Assembly (NCBI GenBank): GCA_019637095.1
Contig: JAHBWG010000010.1
Location: forward strand, 62,001 to 126,000
Direction of reading: 5' to 3'
DNA length: 64,000 nt
DNA from: Sandaracinaceae bacterium
GTDB lineage: Bacteria > Myxococcota_A > Polyangia > Polyangiales > Sandaracinaceae
Shown here: piece by piece, positions 36,485 through 41,246 of the stretch
Layout of the letters: every line of letters starts with the position of its first letter
Numbering within the stretch: position 1 is the stretch's first letter
Made by a program: the position numbers and the translations under genes
The notes under the pieces: model-generated
What the model was told of the DNA's origin: nothing
The model's database searches: none
What the model saw: the letters and a program-made list of their open reading frames with translations, nothing else

Positions 36485-39400
36485 TCAGCGCGACTCGCCC
36501 GGGTCGTGCGCCTCGCCGTCCTCGGGCGGCGGCGGCAGCGCGACGCCGAGCTCGAGGCCGAGCTCGCGCGCCGTGGCCGCGAGCCGGTTCTGGCTGGCGG
36601 GGACGCCCTCGGCGTGGCGGAGCGCTTCGCGCAGGACCTCGCGCGCCTCGTCGCTCCGCCGGTTCGCGTGCAGCGTCCGCGCGAGGCCCGCCGCGGCGGC
36701 GCTGTGGCCCGGGTACGCGCGGAGCGCGCGGCGGAGCATCAGCGCCGCGCAGCCGCCGTTGCCGCCGCGCAGGCACCGCTCGCCGATCTCGTACGCGGTC
36801 TCCGCCTGCGCCCGGCGCCCGCGCACCGCGAGCGTCCCGAGCCGCCGCGCCGCCTCGCGATCGCCCGCCGCGAACGCGCAGCCCTGCGCGTGGAACGCGA
36901 CCTCGTCCTCGTCCCGCGCGAGCGCGTCGACCTCGGCAGGCGCCTCGCGGAGCGCGCTGCACGGCCCGCGCAGCTCGCGCTCGACGTAGTCGAGGAGCCC
37001 GCGGTCCGACGCGACGCCGGACCGCCGCGCGAGGTCGGCGGCGACCCGGAGCGCGTCGGGCTCGCCGACGGCGAGGCTCGCGCGCAGCAGCGGCGCGACC
37101 TCGGACGGCAGCGTGGCCCGCGCGGCGGCGCGCGACAGCGCGGTGCGCGGCCAGCCCTGGCTCGTGCGCAGCAAGTCCGCGCGCAGCGCGGCGCGGGGCT
37201 CGCGCGAGGCGTCCCACGCGCCGAGCGCGCCGGTCACGTCGCCGCGCGCCTCGGCGAGCGCCCCGTCGACCCACGCACGCGCCGCGGGGTCGAGGCCGAG
37301 CCCGTCGAGCGACGCCGCGAGCCGCGACAGCGCGTGCGGGCGGCTCACCGTCGCGGCGACGCGGCGCACGAGCGCCTCGGCGAGCCCGTTGCCCTCCCAC
37401 GCGCCCTCGCCCGCCCACCACGGGACCTCCCGCAGCGCGTGGTCGAGGTCCGGCGCCGCGACCCGCGCGGACTGCGGCGTCGCCGCGAGCTCGAACTCGA
37501 GCAGCGGCCGGTCGTCGCGGATCGACGGCGCGCCCGCACCGAGCGCGCGGGCCGACGCGGAGTCGAGCTCCATCGTGCGGAGCAGATCGAGCCGAGCGCC
37601 GAGGTGCAGCGGTCGCAGCGTGTCCGAGAGACGCGCGAGGCGCGCGTCGAGGCGCGCGTCGAACCGCACCGGCCGCGAGGAGGCGACGAACACGAGGCTC
37701 GTGCCCTCGGCGATGAAGCCCGACACGTGCGTGAACTCGTCGGTGAGCGTCCGGACGACGGCGCGGATCTGTCGCAGGTGGATGCGGAACAGGTTGATCC
37801 AGACGACCAGCACGCCGCCGTCGGTGAGCGCGTGGCGCGCCTCGGCGAAGAACTCGCGCGTGTAGAGCGCGCTCGAGCCGGCGAGCCACGGATGCGACGG
37901 CTGCGAGACGATCGCGTCGTAGGTGCCTGCGGGGGCCAGCGCGAGCCGGTTGCGCGCGTCGTCGATCGCGAGGCGCGCGCGGGGGTCGTCGAGCGGGAAC
38001 GGGACCCTGCGCGCCTGGTGCATCATGCGCGCGGCGTCCACCACCGCCGCCTCGAGCTCGACGACGTCGACCTGCTCGAAGCCGCCGGCGAGCAACAAGC
38101 GCGTGGTGTGCCCGCCGCCGAGGCCGATCGCCATCGCGCGGCCCGTGCGCTCGGGGAACAGCACCGCGGCGCCGCCGAGCAGCCCGACCTCCGCGCCGAA
38201 GCCGGGATCCGTGGCGCGAAAGCCCGACTCCGGGCGCCCGTCGTTCGAGAGGCCGAGCCCGTTGCCCATCCGCTCCACGGTGACCGTCGAGGCGCGCCCC
38301 TCCCGCAAGAAGACCACCGGCTCCCGCCACGACGGCCCCGGCCCCTCGAGCATGGCGCGCAGGGGGTCGTTCGACACGTGCAGTAAGAAAGGTAGGTTGA
38401 CGGTCGGCCCGGTGAGGAGCAGGCCGACGCCGAGCGCGAGCGGCAGCGTGAGCGCGACGGCGCGCACCGCCGGCGCCTGCGCCAGCATCCCGCGGCGGAG
38501 CGCGAGCCCGGCGACGACGAGGTGCACGAGCGCGACGAGCAAGAGCGACGCGTCCACCCCGAGCCACGGGACGAGCAGGAACCCGGCGCCGAGCGACCCG
38601 ATCAGCGCGCCTACGGTGTTGGCGGCGAGCAGGCGCCCGGTGCCGGACGCGGGCTCGTCGCCTCGCCCTTCGGCCATCGCCCAGACGAGCGGCAGCCCGG
38701 TGCCCGACACGATGGCGAGCGGCAAGAGGAGCAGCGCGGCGACGAGCAGCATCGTAGTCGGCCGGTGCGGCACGAACGACAGCTCGCCCGCGAGCAGGGG
38801 CAAGAGCCGCACGAGGTGGGGCACGGCGAACATCGCGACGACGATGAGCGCCGCCGCGAGCGCCTGGGTCGCGCCGAGCGCGAGCGCCGGGCGCGTGCGG
38901 CGCGCGAGCCAGCGCCCTACGAGGGCGCCGACCGCGATGCCCGTCAGGTAGCAGACGAGCATGCTGGCGAACGCCTGCGTCGTCGCGTGCATCACGGTGC
39001 GCAGGACCCGCGTCCAGAGCACCTCCGCGGCGAGCGCGGCGAGCCCCGTGCCGAGCGCGAGGCTCGCGACGAGCGCAGGATGGACCGGCGCGGCGCCCTC
39101 CTCCTCGGGCTGCGCGGGCGTCGGTGCGGCGGCGGGTGCGTCGTCGGCGCCGACCACCCGTACCCGGCCGTACGCGATCACCGCGAGCGCCGCCGCGACG
39201 AGGCTCGCGATCGCCGCCACGTAGACCGTGCTCGTCGCGCCAGCGCGCGGGATCGCGTAGAGCCCCGCGACGCCCGCCCCCGCCATCGCGCCGAGCGTGT
39301 TGATCGCGTAGAGCCCGGTCACGCCGCGCGCCCACTCGGCGCGGCCTCCCACGAGCAACGCGACGACCGGCAGCGTCGCGCCCATCAAGAGCGTCGGCGG

Positions 39401-39775
39401 CACGAGCAGCGCGAGCGCGAGCGCGAGCCGGACGGCCGACAGCGTCGCGCTCGAGGCGTCCGCCCCCACGGCCGCGTATGCCGCCCCGGTCCACGGCACG
39501 AGCCAGGGCGAGGCCGCGGCGTAGATCGCGATGATCCCCTCGAGCACGGCGTAGACGTAGGCGGGGCGCCGCACGCGGCCGGCGTATCGCGCCGCGGCCC
39601 AGCTCCCGAGGCCGAGCCCGAGGAAGAACGCGGCGAGCACGGTCGCCACCGCGAGATCGCCGACGCCGAACACCCGGTGCAGCATCCGGGTCCAGCTCAT
39701 CTCGTAGACCAGCGCGGCGAAGCCGGAGAGCAGGAGCGCGAGGTGGAGCGCCGCGCGGCGGGACCATTGGATCAC
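36485..39775 (-). CDS. Fused membrane/spermidine-synthase-like protein with C-terminal TPR region
   Basis: About 1096 residues from GTG 39775 (TTG 39814 would add 13). The N-terminal half has many membrane segments with the same landmarks as 6316-8937: LLSGFAALVYEMSWTRMLHRVFG and FFLGLGLGSWAAARYAGR. The middle is the methyltransferase-fold domain: LGGGHTTR (glycine loop), VVELEAAVVD, DDARNRLA, DAIVSQPSHPW. As in the split pair the catalytic Asp motif of true spermidine synthase is replaced, here by SQPS, so aminopropyl transfer is doubtful. The C-terminal 300 residues are helical TPR-like. Everything carried by two genes at 4178-8937 is in one polypeptide here. Confidence 0.8.
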   Translation of the reverse strand: MIQWSRRAALHLALLLSGFAALVYEMSWTRMLHRVFGVGDLAVATVLAAFFLGLGLGSWAAARYAGRVRRPAYVYAVLEGIIAIYAAASPWLVPWTGAAYAAVGADASSATLSAVRLALALALLVPPTLLMGATLPVVALLVGGRAEWARGVTGLYAINTLGAMAGAGVAGLYAIPRAGATSTVYVAAIASLVAAALAVIAYGRVRVVGADDAPAAAPTPAQPEEEGAAPVHPALVASLALGTGLAALAAEVLWTRVLRTVMHATTQAFASMLVCYLTGIAVGALVGRWLARRTRPALALGATQALAAALIVVAMFAVPHLVRLLPLLAGELSFVPHRPTTMLLVAALLLLPLAIVSGTGLPLVWAMAEGRGDEPASGTGRLLAANTVGALIGSLGAGFLLVPWLGVDASLLLVALVHLVVAGLALRRGMLAQAPAVRAVALTLPLALGVGLLLTGPTVNLPFLLHVSNDPLRAMLEGPGPSWREPVVFLREGRASTVTVERMGNGLGLSNDGRPESGFRATDPGFGAEVGLLGGAAVLFPERTGRAMAIGLGGGHTTRLLLAGGFEQVDVVELEAAVVDAARMMHQARRVPFPLDDPRARLAIDDARNRLALAPAGTYDAIVSQPSHPWLAGSSALYTREFFAEARHALTDGGVLVVWINLFRIHLRQIRAVVRTLTDEFTHVSGFIAEGTSLVFVASSRPVRFDARLDARLARLSDTLRPLHLGARLDLLRTMELDSASARALGAGAPSIRDDRPLLEFELAATPQSARVAAPDLDHALREVPWWAGEGAWEGNGLAEALVRRVAATVSRPHALSRLAASLDGLGLDPAARAWVDGALAEARGDVTGALGAWDASREPRAALRADLLRTSQGWPRTALSRAAARATLPSEVAPLLRASLAVGEPDALRVAADLARRSGVASDRGLLDYVERELRGPCSALREAPAEVDALARDEDEVAFHAQGCAFAAGDREAARRLGTLAVRGRRAQAETAYEIGERCLRGGNGGCAALMLRRALRAYPGHSAAAAGLARTLHANRRSDEAREVLREALRHAEGVPASQNRLAATARELGLELGVALPPPPEDGEAHDPGESR

Positions 39776-39836
39776 CGGCGAGCGAGGATGCGCCTCCCCC
39801 CTCGCTCGCGTCAAAGAGATCCGCGGCGAGCTTCAC

Positions 39837-39976
39837 GGTCTGTCGATGAATCTCCCGTCGCCCCGCGGCCGATGCGGGCCGATCCGCGGCGCTGCCGCGG
39901 ATCGCCGTGCTTTCGCACGCTCCTCGCGTCGCCTTGCGGCTCGACCCCGGTGCTCGGTCCGATTCATCGACAGACG
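39837..39976. mobile_element. MITE-like element with 15-bp terminal inverted repeats
   Basis: gtctgtcgatgaatc (39838-39852) and gattcatcgacagac (39961-39975) are exact inverted copies, 108 bp apart. The flanks carry the same pentamer ttcac (39832-39836 and 39977-39981), compatible with a 5-bp target duplication. Between them lies a perfect 10-bp hairpin gatccgcggc/gccgcggatc (39881-39903, loop gct). No ORF fits inside. The right flank covers the stop codon of the regulator gene (39978-39980). It may be a non-autonomous element or a structured RNA. Confidence 0.45.
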
Positions 39977-39977
39977 T

Positions 39978-40535
39978 TCACCCCTCGCGGCCGAGCAGCA
40001 CGCGCGCGAGCGCGCGCGCGTCGACGCGCGCCTCCGACACGAGGCCGTGCAGCAGCCGGTGTCCGAGCCGCGAGAGCTCGAGGAGCTGGAGGAGCCGCTC
40101 GCGCTGGGCGCGTGCGCGGCGCGCCGAGTCGGGGGCGTCTGCGTCGAGCGGCTCGCGGTCGAGCGCCTCGAGCGCGCGCTCGAGGCTCGCGACGACCTCC
40201 TGCACCTCGACCAGCTCGCGCTGGCGGAAGACCCGGGACACCATCTTCCAGAGATCGCCCTCGGCCGTGAAGTGATCGCGGCGCGCGCCCTGGATCCACA
40301 CCTTGCGGACGGTGCCCCACGCCGACAGCTCCTTGAGCGTCATCGAGACGGCGCCAGCCGAGAGCTGCAGGCGCTCGCGCAGGTCGTGCGCGCTGAGCGG
40401 GCGCTCCGCGAGGTAGAGCACGGTCCACACGCGGCCCATGTTCCGCTTGAACCCCCAGAACTCCATGATCCGCCCGATCGCGTCGCTGGCGATGAGCTCG
40501 CTCGTCCAGAGACGCTGTGGGGGCGAGGACGCCAT
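39978..40535 (-). CDS. GbsR/MarR-type transcriptional regulator
   Basis: 185 residues from ATG 40535. A winged helix near the N-terminus shows the GbsR pattern: DAIGRIMEFWGFKRNMGRVWTVLYLAERPLSAHDLRERL, then the recognition helix SAGAVSMTLKELSAWGTVRKVW. A basic segment and a long C-terminal helix (about 100-185, leucine/arginine-rich) likely mediate dimerisation. Members bind DNA near osmolyte genes, but none adjoins it. It is divergent from the metzincin-like protease gene, 69 bp away, which is its most obvious target. Confidence 0.82.
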   Translation of the reverse strand: MASSPPQRLWTSELIASDAIGRIMEFWGFKRNMGRVWTVLYLAERPLSAHDLRERLQLSAGAVSMTLKELSAWGTVRKVWIQGARRDHFTAEGDLWKMVSRVFRQRELVEVQEVVASLERALEALDREPLDADAPDSARRARAQRERLLQLLELSRLGHRLLHGLVSEARVDARALARVLLGREG

Positions 40536-40604
40536 CGACGAACCGTCGCGCCCGTTGCCCGGCGCGGTCAAGCACGTAGCCTTCACGGTGTGGTCTCGAT
40601 CCGC

Positions 40605-41246
40605 ATGCGTCGCACCGCCCTCGCCCTCGCTCTCGCTCCGCTCGCCGCCGCGACGGCGCTCGGCCAGCCGACGCCGCGCCCGACGACCACCCTCCCCCTC
40701 GCCGTGACCACGGCGCTCGAGGGCGACGCCCCCGTCGTGGACGACGCGTGGATCGACGCGCAGCTCGAGCAGGCGAACCTCCTGTTCGCGCCGCACGGCG
40801 TGGCGTTCGTGGTCGTCGAGCGGCACACGATGCCCGAGCGCCACGCGCGGCTCGAGAACCGCCGCGACCGTCACCTGCTCGGTCATCGCCTCCACCGCCA
40901 GCGCGTCGACGCCTTCTTCGTGCGCTCGCTGCGCGACGTCGACGAGCCCGACCGGATGCGGCAGGGCGTCCACTGGCGGCCTCGCGGCGAGGGGTACGAC
41001 CCGCGCGCGCACTACGTCATCGTCAGCTCGATCGCGGGGCCGACCGTGCTCGCACACGAGCTCGGTCACTACTTCGGCAACGGCCACTCGGACGTGCCGG
41101 GCAACGTCATGAGCTACGAGCGCGGCGACCGCCCGCCGTTCTTCGACGCGGCCCAAGGGGCGCGCATCCGCGGCTCGCTCCGGCGGTTCCTCGAGCGCGG
41201 CGAGCTCGTCGCTGCGGACGGAGTCAGTCCCGGACCCGCTCGATGA
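40605..41246 (+). CDS. Small secreted metzincin-like zinc metalloprotease
   Basis: 213 residues from ATG 40605. A signal peptide (ALALALAPLAAATALG) is cut near residue 20. The zinc motif is complete: HELGHYFGNGH at 151-161, that is HExxHxxGxxH, followed by a methionine-turn-like M169 in NVMSYE. This is the metzincin signature. Residues between the signal and the zinc site (about 25-145) are not a recognised propeptide. The extracytoplasmic location suggests a secreted protease. Its 3' end overlaps the convergent lipoprotein gene by 23 bp. Confidence 0.8.
   Translation: MRRTALALALAPLAAATALGQPTPRPTTTLPLAVTTALEGDAPVVDDAWIDAQLEQANLLFAPHGVAFVVVERHTMPERHARLENRRDRHLLGHRLHRQRVDAFFVRSLRDVDEPDRMRQGVHWRPRGEGYDPRAHYVIVSSIAGPTVLAHELGHYFGNGHSDVPGNVMSYERGDRPPFFDAAQGARIRGSLRRFLERGELVAADGVSPGPAR

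Follow-up and report, generated by a model that had tools for sequence, protein, structure and literature searches.

The interiors of MITEs are usually regarded as passive filler, and ERIC, REP and NEMIS are multicopy palindromic intergenic repeats of a size similar to that of the element described here. MITEs with stable transcript folds are already known, as the accessible part of PMC10969869 describes, and one Coxiella MITE is located at the 3' end of a gene according to the text available for PMC5896051. For the IS1031 subgroup of the IS5 family, the portion of PMC12016507 at hand reports that TNA is the preferred target and that a 3-bp repeat is made, and that some members contain two overlapping ORFs. 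A literature search with partial coverage returned no description of the present MITE family or of MITEs placed on stop codons.

The window, a stretch of 64,000 nucleotides (G000:C2:62001-126000), belongs to a 9.25-Mb draft genome, G000. The element within it is multicopy, ends in terminal inverted repeats and is flanked by duplicated TNA trinucleotides. It is very probably a MITE that is moved by an IS1031-like transposase of the IS5 family, uses stop codons as safe harbours and possesses a conserved rod-like core.

The element and its landing sites

The features of the locus are (positions in the window):
39836-39977, minus strand: whole element between the copies of the target duplication (17 near-full genome copies; model match)
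39838-39852, plus strand: left terminal inverted repeat GTCTGTCGATGAATC (sequence read, exact-repeat check)
39961-39975, minus strand: right terminal inverted repeat GATTCATCGACAGAC, the exact 15-bp partner of GTCTGTCGATGAATC
39833-39835, no strand assigned: presumed left target-duplication copy TCA (TGA on the minus strand), within TTCAC (judged from the boundary TNA of other copies)
39978-39980, minus strand: right target-duplication copy, identical with the TGA stop codon of the regulator gene (ORF 39978-41156, minus strand, ends here; TGA at offset -5)
39853-39960, minus strand: structured core with conserved blocks GGACCGAG, AAGGCG, GAGGAG and GCGACGGGAG (copy alignments)
39880-39904, no strand assigned: 11-bp perfect hairpin with 3-nt loop (39880-39890 / 39894-39904), private to the window copy
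39981-40533, minus strand: regulator-like gene, 184 aa, whose stop codon is the insertion site (ORF list; orthologue matches)
36485-39814, minus strand: protein with spermidine-synthase domain and TPR on the far side of the element (PF01564, E 2.4e-11)

The covariance model of the family matches the window copy at 39838-39975 on the minus strand with 120.7 bits; the minus strand is thus the folded (R) strand of the core and also the strand of the regulator gene, the 184-aa product of which has no Pfam match at E 0.001. The first-pass annotation reported exact inverted repeats of 15 bp, which are present at 39838-39852 and 39961-39975. The perfect internal hairpin that it described is real, but measures 11 bp and is peculiar to the window copy, since the other aligned copies have a different centre at this place. 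The core of the window copy is altered in its central hairpin and lacks ~11 bp, leaving 138 bp between the model ends as opposed to 147-153 bp in most copies. The 17 near-full copies, non-coding and with terminal inverted repeats, span 138-153 bp between these ends.

Searching the whole genome for the element at E up to 10 yielded 60 pieces, of which 17 (L001-L017) are nearly full-length with 83-100% identity; these copies, the window copy included, are dispersed over different contigs, with fragments besides. The 15-bp end, allowing up to two mismatches, occurs at 67 places in G000 (35 forward and 32 reverse) versus none on either strand for a control sequence read backwards, which bears out the earlier view that the repeat is no product of chance. 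Two copies, L006 and L007, are identical over 149 bp in unrelated flanks, a sign of recent movement. For the following counts, a list of 104 copies was used, from which we removed fragments (L018-L020, L023, L025-L028, L030), self matches on the reverse strand, duplicate records of one place (L102, L104, L108) and L080, L082, L215 and L216. It includes L072 and L077, which look like one site in two related genomes and are not independent, and the copies of genome G269, which are close relatives of one another.

A second repeat type of G000 (L046, L057, L059, L163-L168, L033) carries nearly the same terminal repeat, beginning GTCTGTCGATGAATCGAGCGC, at one end only and has a different, GC-rich interior with multiple hairpins. 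In G138, copies L110, L200-L203 and L205-L207 share their outer flanks, and the element may lie within larger repeats there. At L161 (G000:C162:49900-52900), the repeat end runs straight into what reads like mid-protein sequence, presumably of a GxxExxY-type protein judged by likeness, which gives the impression of a gene severed by the repeat.

A TNA is found at both boundaries in 9 of 20 copies from G000 (identical in 8) and in 27 of 82 copies from other genomes (identical in 22; L116 and L211 were dropped from 84), while at each of seven shifted offsets the count is 0 of 20 and 0, respectively. In the window copy, the duplication reads TGA/TGA on the minus strand. The TTCAC flanks that had been taken for a 5-bp target duplication are present on both sides (39832-39836 and 39977-39981), but only their central TCA is the duplicated target: at that offset only the central TNA is common to other copies, so a 5-bp duplication is ruled out, and the matching letters on either side of it are due to chance or belong to the element. 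An intact far-side duplication is missing from many copies. The far-side flank (e.g. of L008, L011, L013, L015 and L017) often reads CTCGAG instead of TTGA/TCAA, a change common to many G000 copies that random decay of the trinucleotide explains only partly.

In 19 of 20 copies from G000, a TGA at the boundary offset closes an ORF on one side, although two of these 19 ORFs, L002 (52 aa) and L010, look non-coding, and L024 was not scored. Among the 20 G000 copies, 19 have flanks of 300 bp or more on both sides; judged by third-position GC, 16 of these 19 abut a best coding frame whose stop lies exactly on the boundary. A rough gene model of the window counts 131 TNA sites that are non-coding or at stops, 47 of them stop codons, and predicts a rate of ~36%, at which 16 or more of 19 have a binomial probability of ~2 in 100,000. 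Outside the window genome, the placement is weaker: under the same flank rule (76 of 84 copies retained), 36 of 76 best frames stop at the boundary, the ~36% rate being that of the window. TGA, TAG and TAA are all used as boundary stops. Eight of the 19 boundary ORFs in G000 have in-frame matches to Pfam domains (Amidohydro_3, Aldedh, WecG, Sigma54/HTH_8, prephenate dehydratase/ACT, LMF1, DUF4234 and FGE-sulfatase; the low-complexity matches of L012 are uncounted). In six of the eight, the domain reaches to within 7-19 aa of the stop, which is why these stops are taken as the native protein ends. In G000, 12 copies lie in sense orientation to their gene and 4 in antisense; elsewhere the numbers are 17 and 21.

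In G005 and G002, the regulator has orthologues (58% and 54% identity) whose TGA stop differs in position by a few codons at most and is not followed by the element. They partly supply the empty sites in relatives that had been called for: the element is absent, but the genomes are of other genera with a different downstream gene. These orthologues also rule out that the insertion reset the end of the gene, as the first-pass annotation had proposed; the right TGA copy does coincide with the stop codon of the regulator, as it had noted, and the gene end is rebuilt by stop-codon duplication, with the protein unchanged. A DDE transposase of the IS1031-like group (IS5 family) would move the element in trans, cutting at TNA and producing the 3-bp duplication. 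TNA includes TGA and TAA, and insertion at a stop codon would thus duplicate the whole codon, which would leave the protein intact. Stop codons may in this way act as safe harbours, where copies accumulate.

The folded core and its changing ends

When 23 copies from eight genomes are aligned, invariant blocks appear inside and the ends are strongly different. The consensus fold comprises 46 pairs, 29 of which are changed on both sides in one sequence or more, and 92.8% of the cells pair. Its covariation score is 0.411, compared with a mean of 0.135 for shuffled alignments (none of 500 reaches 0.411) and at most 0.075 for slid versions. The core is predicted to form a long rod with strand-specific, purine-rich loops. 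In the window copy, the fold z-score is -7.2 on the minus strand and -6.2 on the plus strand, and none of 200 shuffles folds as well. A known structured RNA was rejected, since matches to the 4227 Rfam models in the window stretch are at chance level only, and 20 loci of the element gave none at E up to 1.

Of 183 genomes in the order Polyangiales, 57 contain matches to the covariance model built from the 23-copy alignment (E up to 0.01; at most 17 candidates were scored per genome, which makes the copy numbers lower bounds). In a set of 377 genomes sampled from the phylum Myxococcota, 72 have matches with E values up to 1e-4, most of them ~148-153 bp long. Among 15 other genomes reached via pattern matches, 12 have no match, one Eisenbacteria MAG has 13 (best 8.8e-10), and two have one weak match each (1.6e-4 and 0.0049), which give an idea of the chance level. 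The terminal repeats vary between genomes, and even inside G213, while the core is kept. The core being kept across genera while the ends vary, the lineage appears to retain its core as the ends track different transposases.

Conservation between genomes does not extend to each copy. Across the 17 near-full G000 copies, core stems carry 2.1% substitutions, core loops 4.8% and terminal repeats 6.1%; of the altered pairs, 32 cells are broken, 5 are doubly compensated and 10 still pair after one change. Single copies thus drift as the fold is kept between genomes, which argues for selection on the active lineage and not for host use of each copy. The decay of individual copies without compensation indicates that the fold most likely serves the spread of the element itself and not host genes; this role of the core in propagation is putative.

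A far-reaching extension, which we offer tentatively as one possibility, makes the element a bacterial counterpart of SINEs: a long-established, non-coding parasite that is inherited through its folded core (RNA or single-stranded DNA), which is conserved across Myxococcota and in at least one genome outside, whose ends were repeatedly swapped to suit resident IS5-type transposases and for which stop codons are harmless landing sites. The core might then promote its own mobilization, e.g. by recruiting the transposase or its mRNA.

Strand preference and wobble pairs bear on whether the core acts as RNA. The strand corresponding to the window's minus strand folds better in every sequence of two alignments (23 of 23 and 39 of 39). 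The mean energy difference between strands for the 39 cores is -11.2 kcal/mol versus -2.8 in shuffles, which lean to the same strand less strongly, and 23 of the 39 lie below all 30 shuffles. Such strand-specific folding is equally possible for single-stranded DNA, and the occurrence of both orientations to genes would likewise suit a core that works in this form during replication or transposition. The excess of G-U pairs over A-C mismatches in the core fits RNA best, however: it is 74 to 7 in the first alignment, although smaller, 69 to 27, in the diverse set, and we regard a single-stranded DNA role as unlikely. For the terminal stem, the corresponding figures are 12 to 11 and 34 to 8; as the diverse alignment displays a G-U excess there too, no claim is made that the terminal stem evolves differently.

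Alternatively, the element could have spread as a MITE and now be kept for the host as a 3'-UTR element, i.e. a terminator, an mRNA stabilizer or a protein-binding RNA. The location of copies exactly at gene ends, the very stable fold, the covariation across genomes and the lower substitution in core stems than in loops within the genome all speak for such a use. However, the orientation relative to the gene is not fixed, contrary to what a fixed mRNA role would require, broken pairs outnumber doubly restored ones by 32 to 5, and the position at stop codons is explained more simply by a TNA target that makes insertion harmless. Moreover, no T-run follows the hairpin at either end of the element when the sequence is read by eye, which argues against an intrinsic terminator. 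Retention for the host is therefore rather improbable. The first-pass annotation had held a structured RNA or terminator in reserve in case no further copies and no empty sites existed; copies were found and a T-run was not, but the structured part of that suggestion survives in the conserved, strand-specific fold of the core.

Two further candidates were considered. One was a retron/msDNA-like repeat, in view of the msDNA repeats of Nannocystis. An attC-like site, considered for the position behind stop codons, was rejected: attC sites are defined by end motifs, which are absent here, and the copies are dispersed.

Transposases and autonomous relatives

The element was probably inserted at, and duplicated, the stop codon through an IS5/IS1031-type transposase. 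In G000 itself, the search for the IS5-type transposase domain PF13340 gave no match, the four PF01609 loci have no matching ends, and no pair of ends ~1 kb apart, as expected for an autonomous parent, was noted among the 67 end positions. The mover in G000 was therefore not found and is inferred. PF13340 is likewise absent from 7 of 10 other genomes in one search and from 16 of 24 in another; the two sets overlap, and most of these genomes carry copies.

An autonomous element whose ends match those of the MITE by sequence is present in G269, a complete genome with at least 15 MITE copies. An 889-bp IS5-type element with 16-bp ends GAGCGCCTAACAAAAC / GAGCGCCTAACAATAG and TTA duplications occupies five of six loci examined, and the sixth holds a longer version; its two overlapping ORFs correspond to DUF4096 and DDE_Tnp_1. 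The MITE ends of this genome are GAGCGCCGAACAAAACC and GAGCGCCTCTCAAAACC, i.e. GAGCGCC[GAACAA/TCTCAA]AACC, with TTA or TAA adjoining. At G269 loci L098 and L130, a MITE copy adjoins the 889-bp element with the TTA common at the joint.

Further genomes give a mixed picture. IS elements of G249 with ends GA[A/G]CCTATCCCAGTA resemble the MITE ends GAGCCTATCCCGGTAG of G213 and G307. In G221, two transposase loci adjoin single ends that differ from the MITE end by 2-3 mismatches; no complete pair was found there. The IS loci of G203, G138, G037, G244, G252 and G315 were discarded as movers, no end having matched the MITE end taken for the respective genome, as was the IS of G234, the perfect ends of which, CTAGGGGGTGTCCCTA, are unlike its MITE end. 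Beside an IS5-type transposase at L132 (G203:C11), a long direct-repeat array with a spacing of ~73 bp extends over about 43-1381; it is possibly a CRISPR array.

The MITE shares the TNA target and the 3-bp duplication of the IS1031 subgroup. A resident IS1031-group element sharing the ends of the local MITE was found in G269 and not in G000, which is why the G000 element is said to work like, rather than to be, an IS1031 derivative. The matching transposase that the first-pass annotation had suggested looking for accordingly exists in a relative, but was not detected in the window genome. The lack of a matching transposase in G000 would also agree with a REP/ERIC-like repeat spread there by a transposase outside the IS5 family. 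This reading is given little credence, because both the TNA duplications and the end sequences agree with IS5-type elements of other genomes. The window sequence has many short hairpins, but that the element is an ordinary terminator or a palindrome arisen by chance in GC-rich DNA can practically be dismissed given the many copies versus a control of 0 and the z-score of -7.2. The MITE reading of the first-pass annotation is supported by the multiple copies, the boundary TNA pairs, the identical copies at unrelated sites and the autonomous element with matching ends in a relative.

Comparison with described elements

ERIC, REP and NEMIS differ from the present element in sequence, in target (here TNA, often in a stop codon) and in taxonomic range. 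With the IS1031 subgroup, e.g. ISLrh, the MITE has in common the TNA target, the 3-bp duplication and terminal repeats of ~16-17 bp, as far as the accessible text of PMC12016507 describes them. The autonomous element of G269 resembles ISLrh in its two overlapping ORFs and in length (889 bp as against the 857 bp given in the same portion of PMC12016507). The MITE differs from these elements in having no transposase ORF; only the ends are shared, and its core is unrelated to the IS interior.

MITEAba12 (PMC6382973) and QMITE1/QMITE2 of Coxiella (PMC5896051) are, in the parts of these sources at hand, similarly short and non-coding, with terminal repeats and a target duplication; they are also thought to be mobilized in trans and have a stable predicted transcript fold. 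In contrast to the present element, the core of which spans an order and beyond with compensatory changes, they are described there within a species or family. The present element further differs from them, as those texts portray them, by ends that vary between genomes and by copies that lie on stop codons.

A compensated fold across genera with varying ends makes a functional folded core in a non-coding bacterial transposon testable now. The stop-codon pattern represents a simple route to harmlessness for a transposon with a 3-bp duplication, and annotators should consider that a conserved hairpin directly after a myxobacterial stop codon may represent mobile DNA rather than a terminator. The element is ordinary in kind, but it is unusual in that its structured core extends across an order, its ends change and stop codons serve as its harbour.
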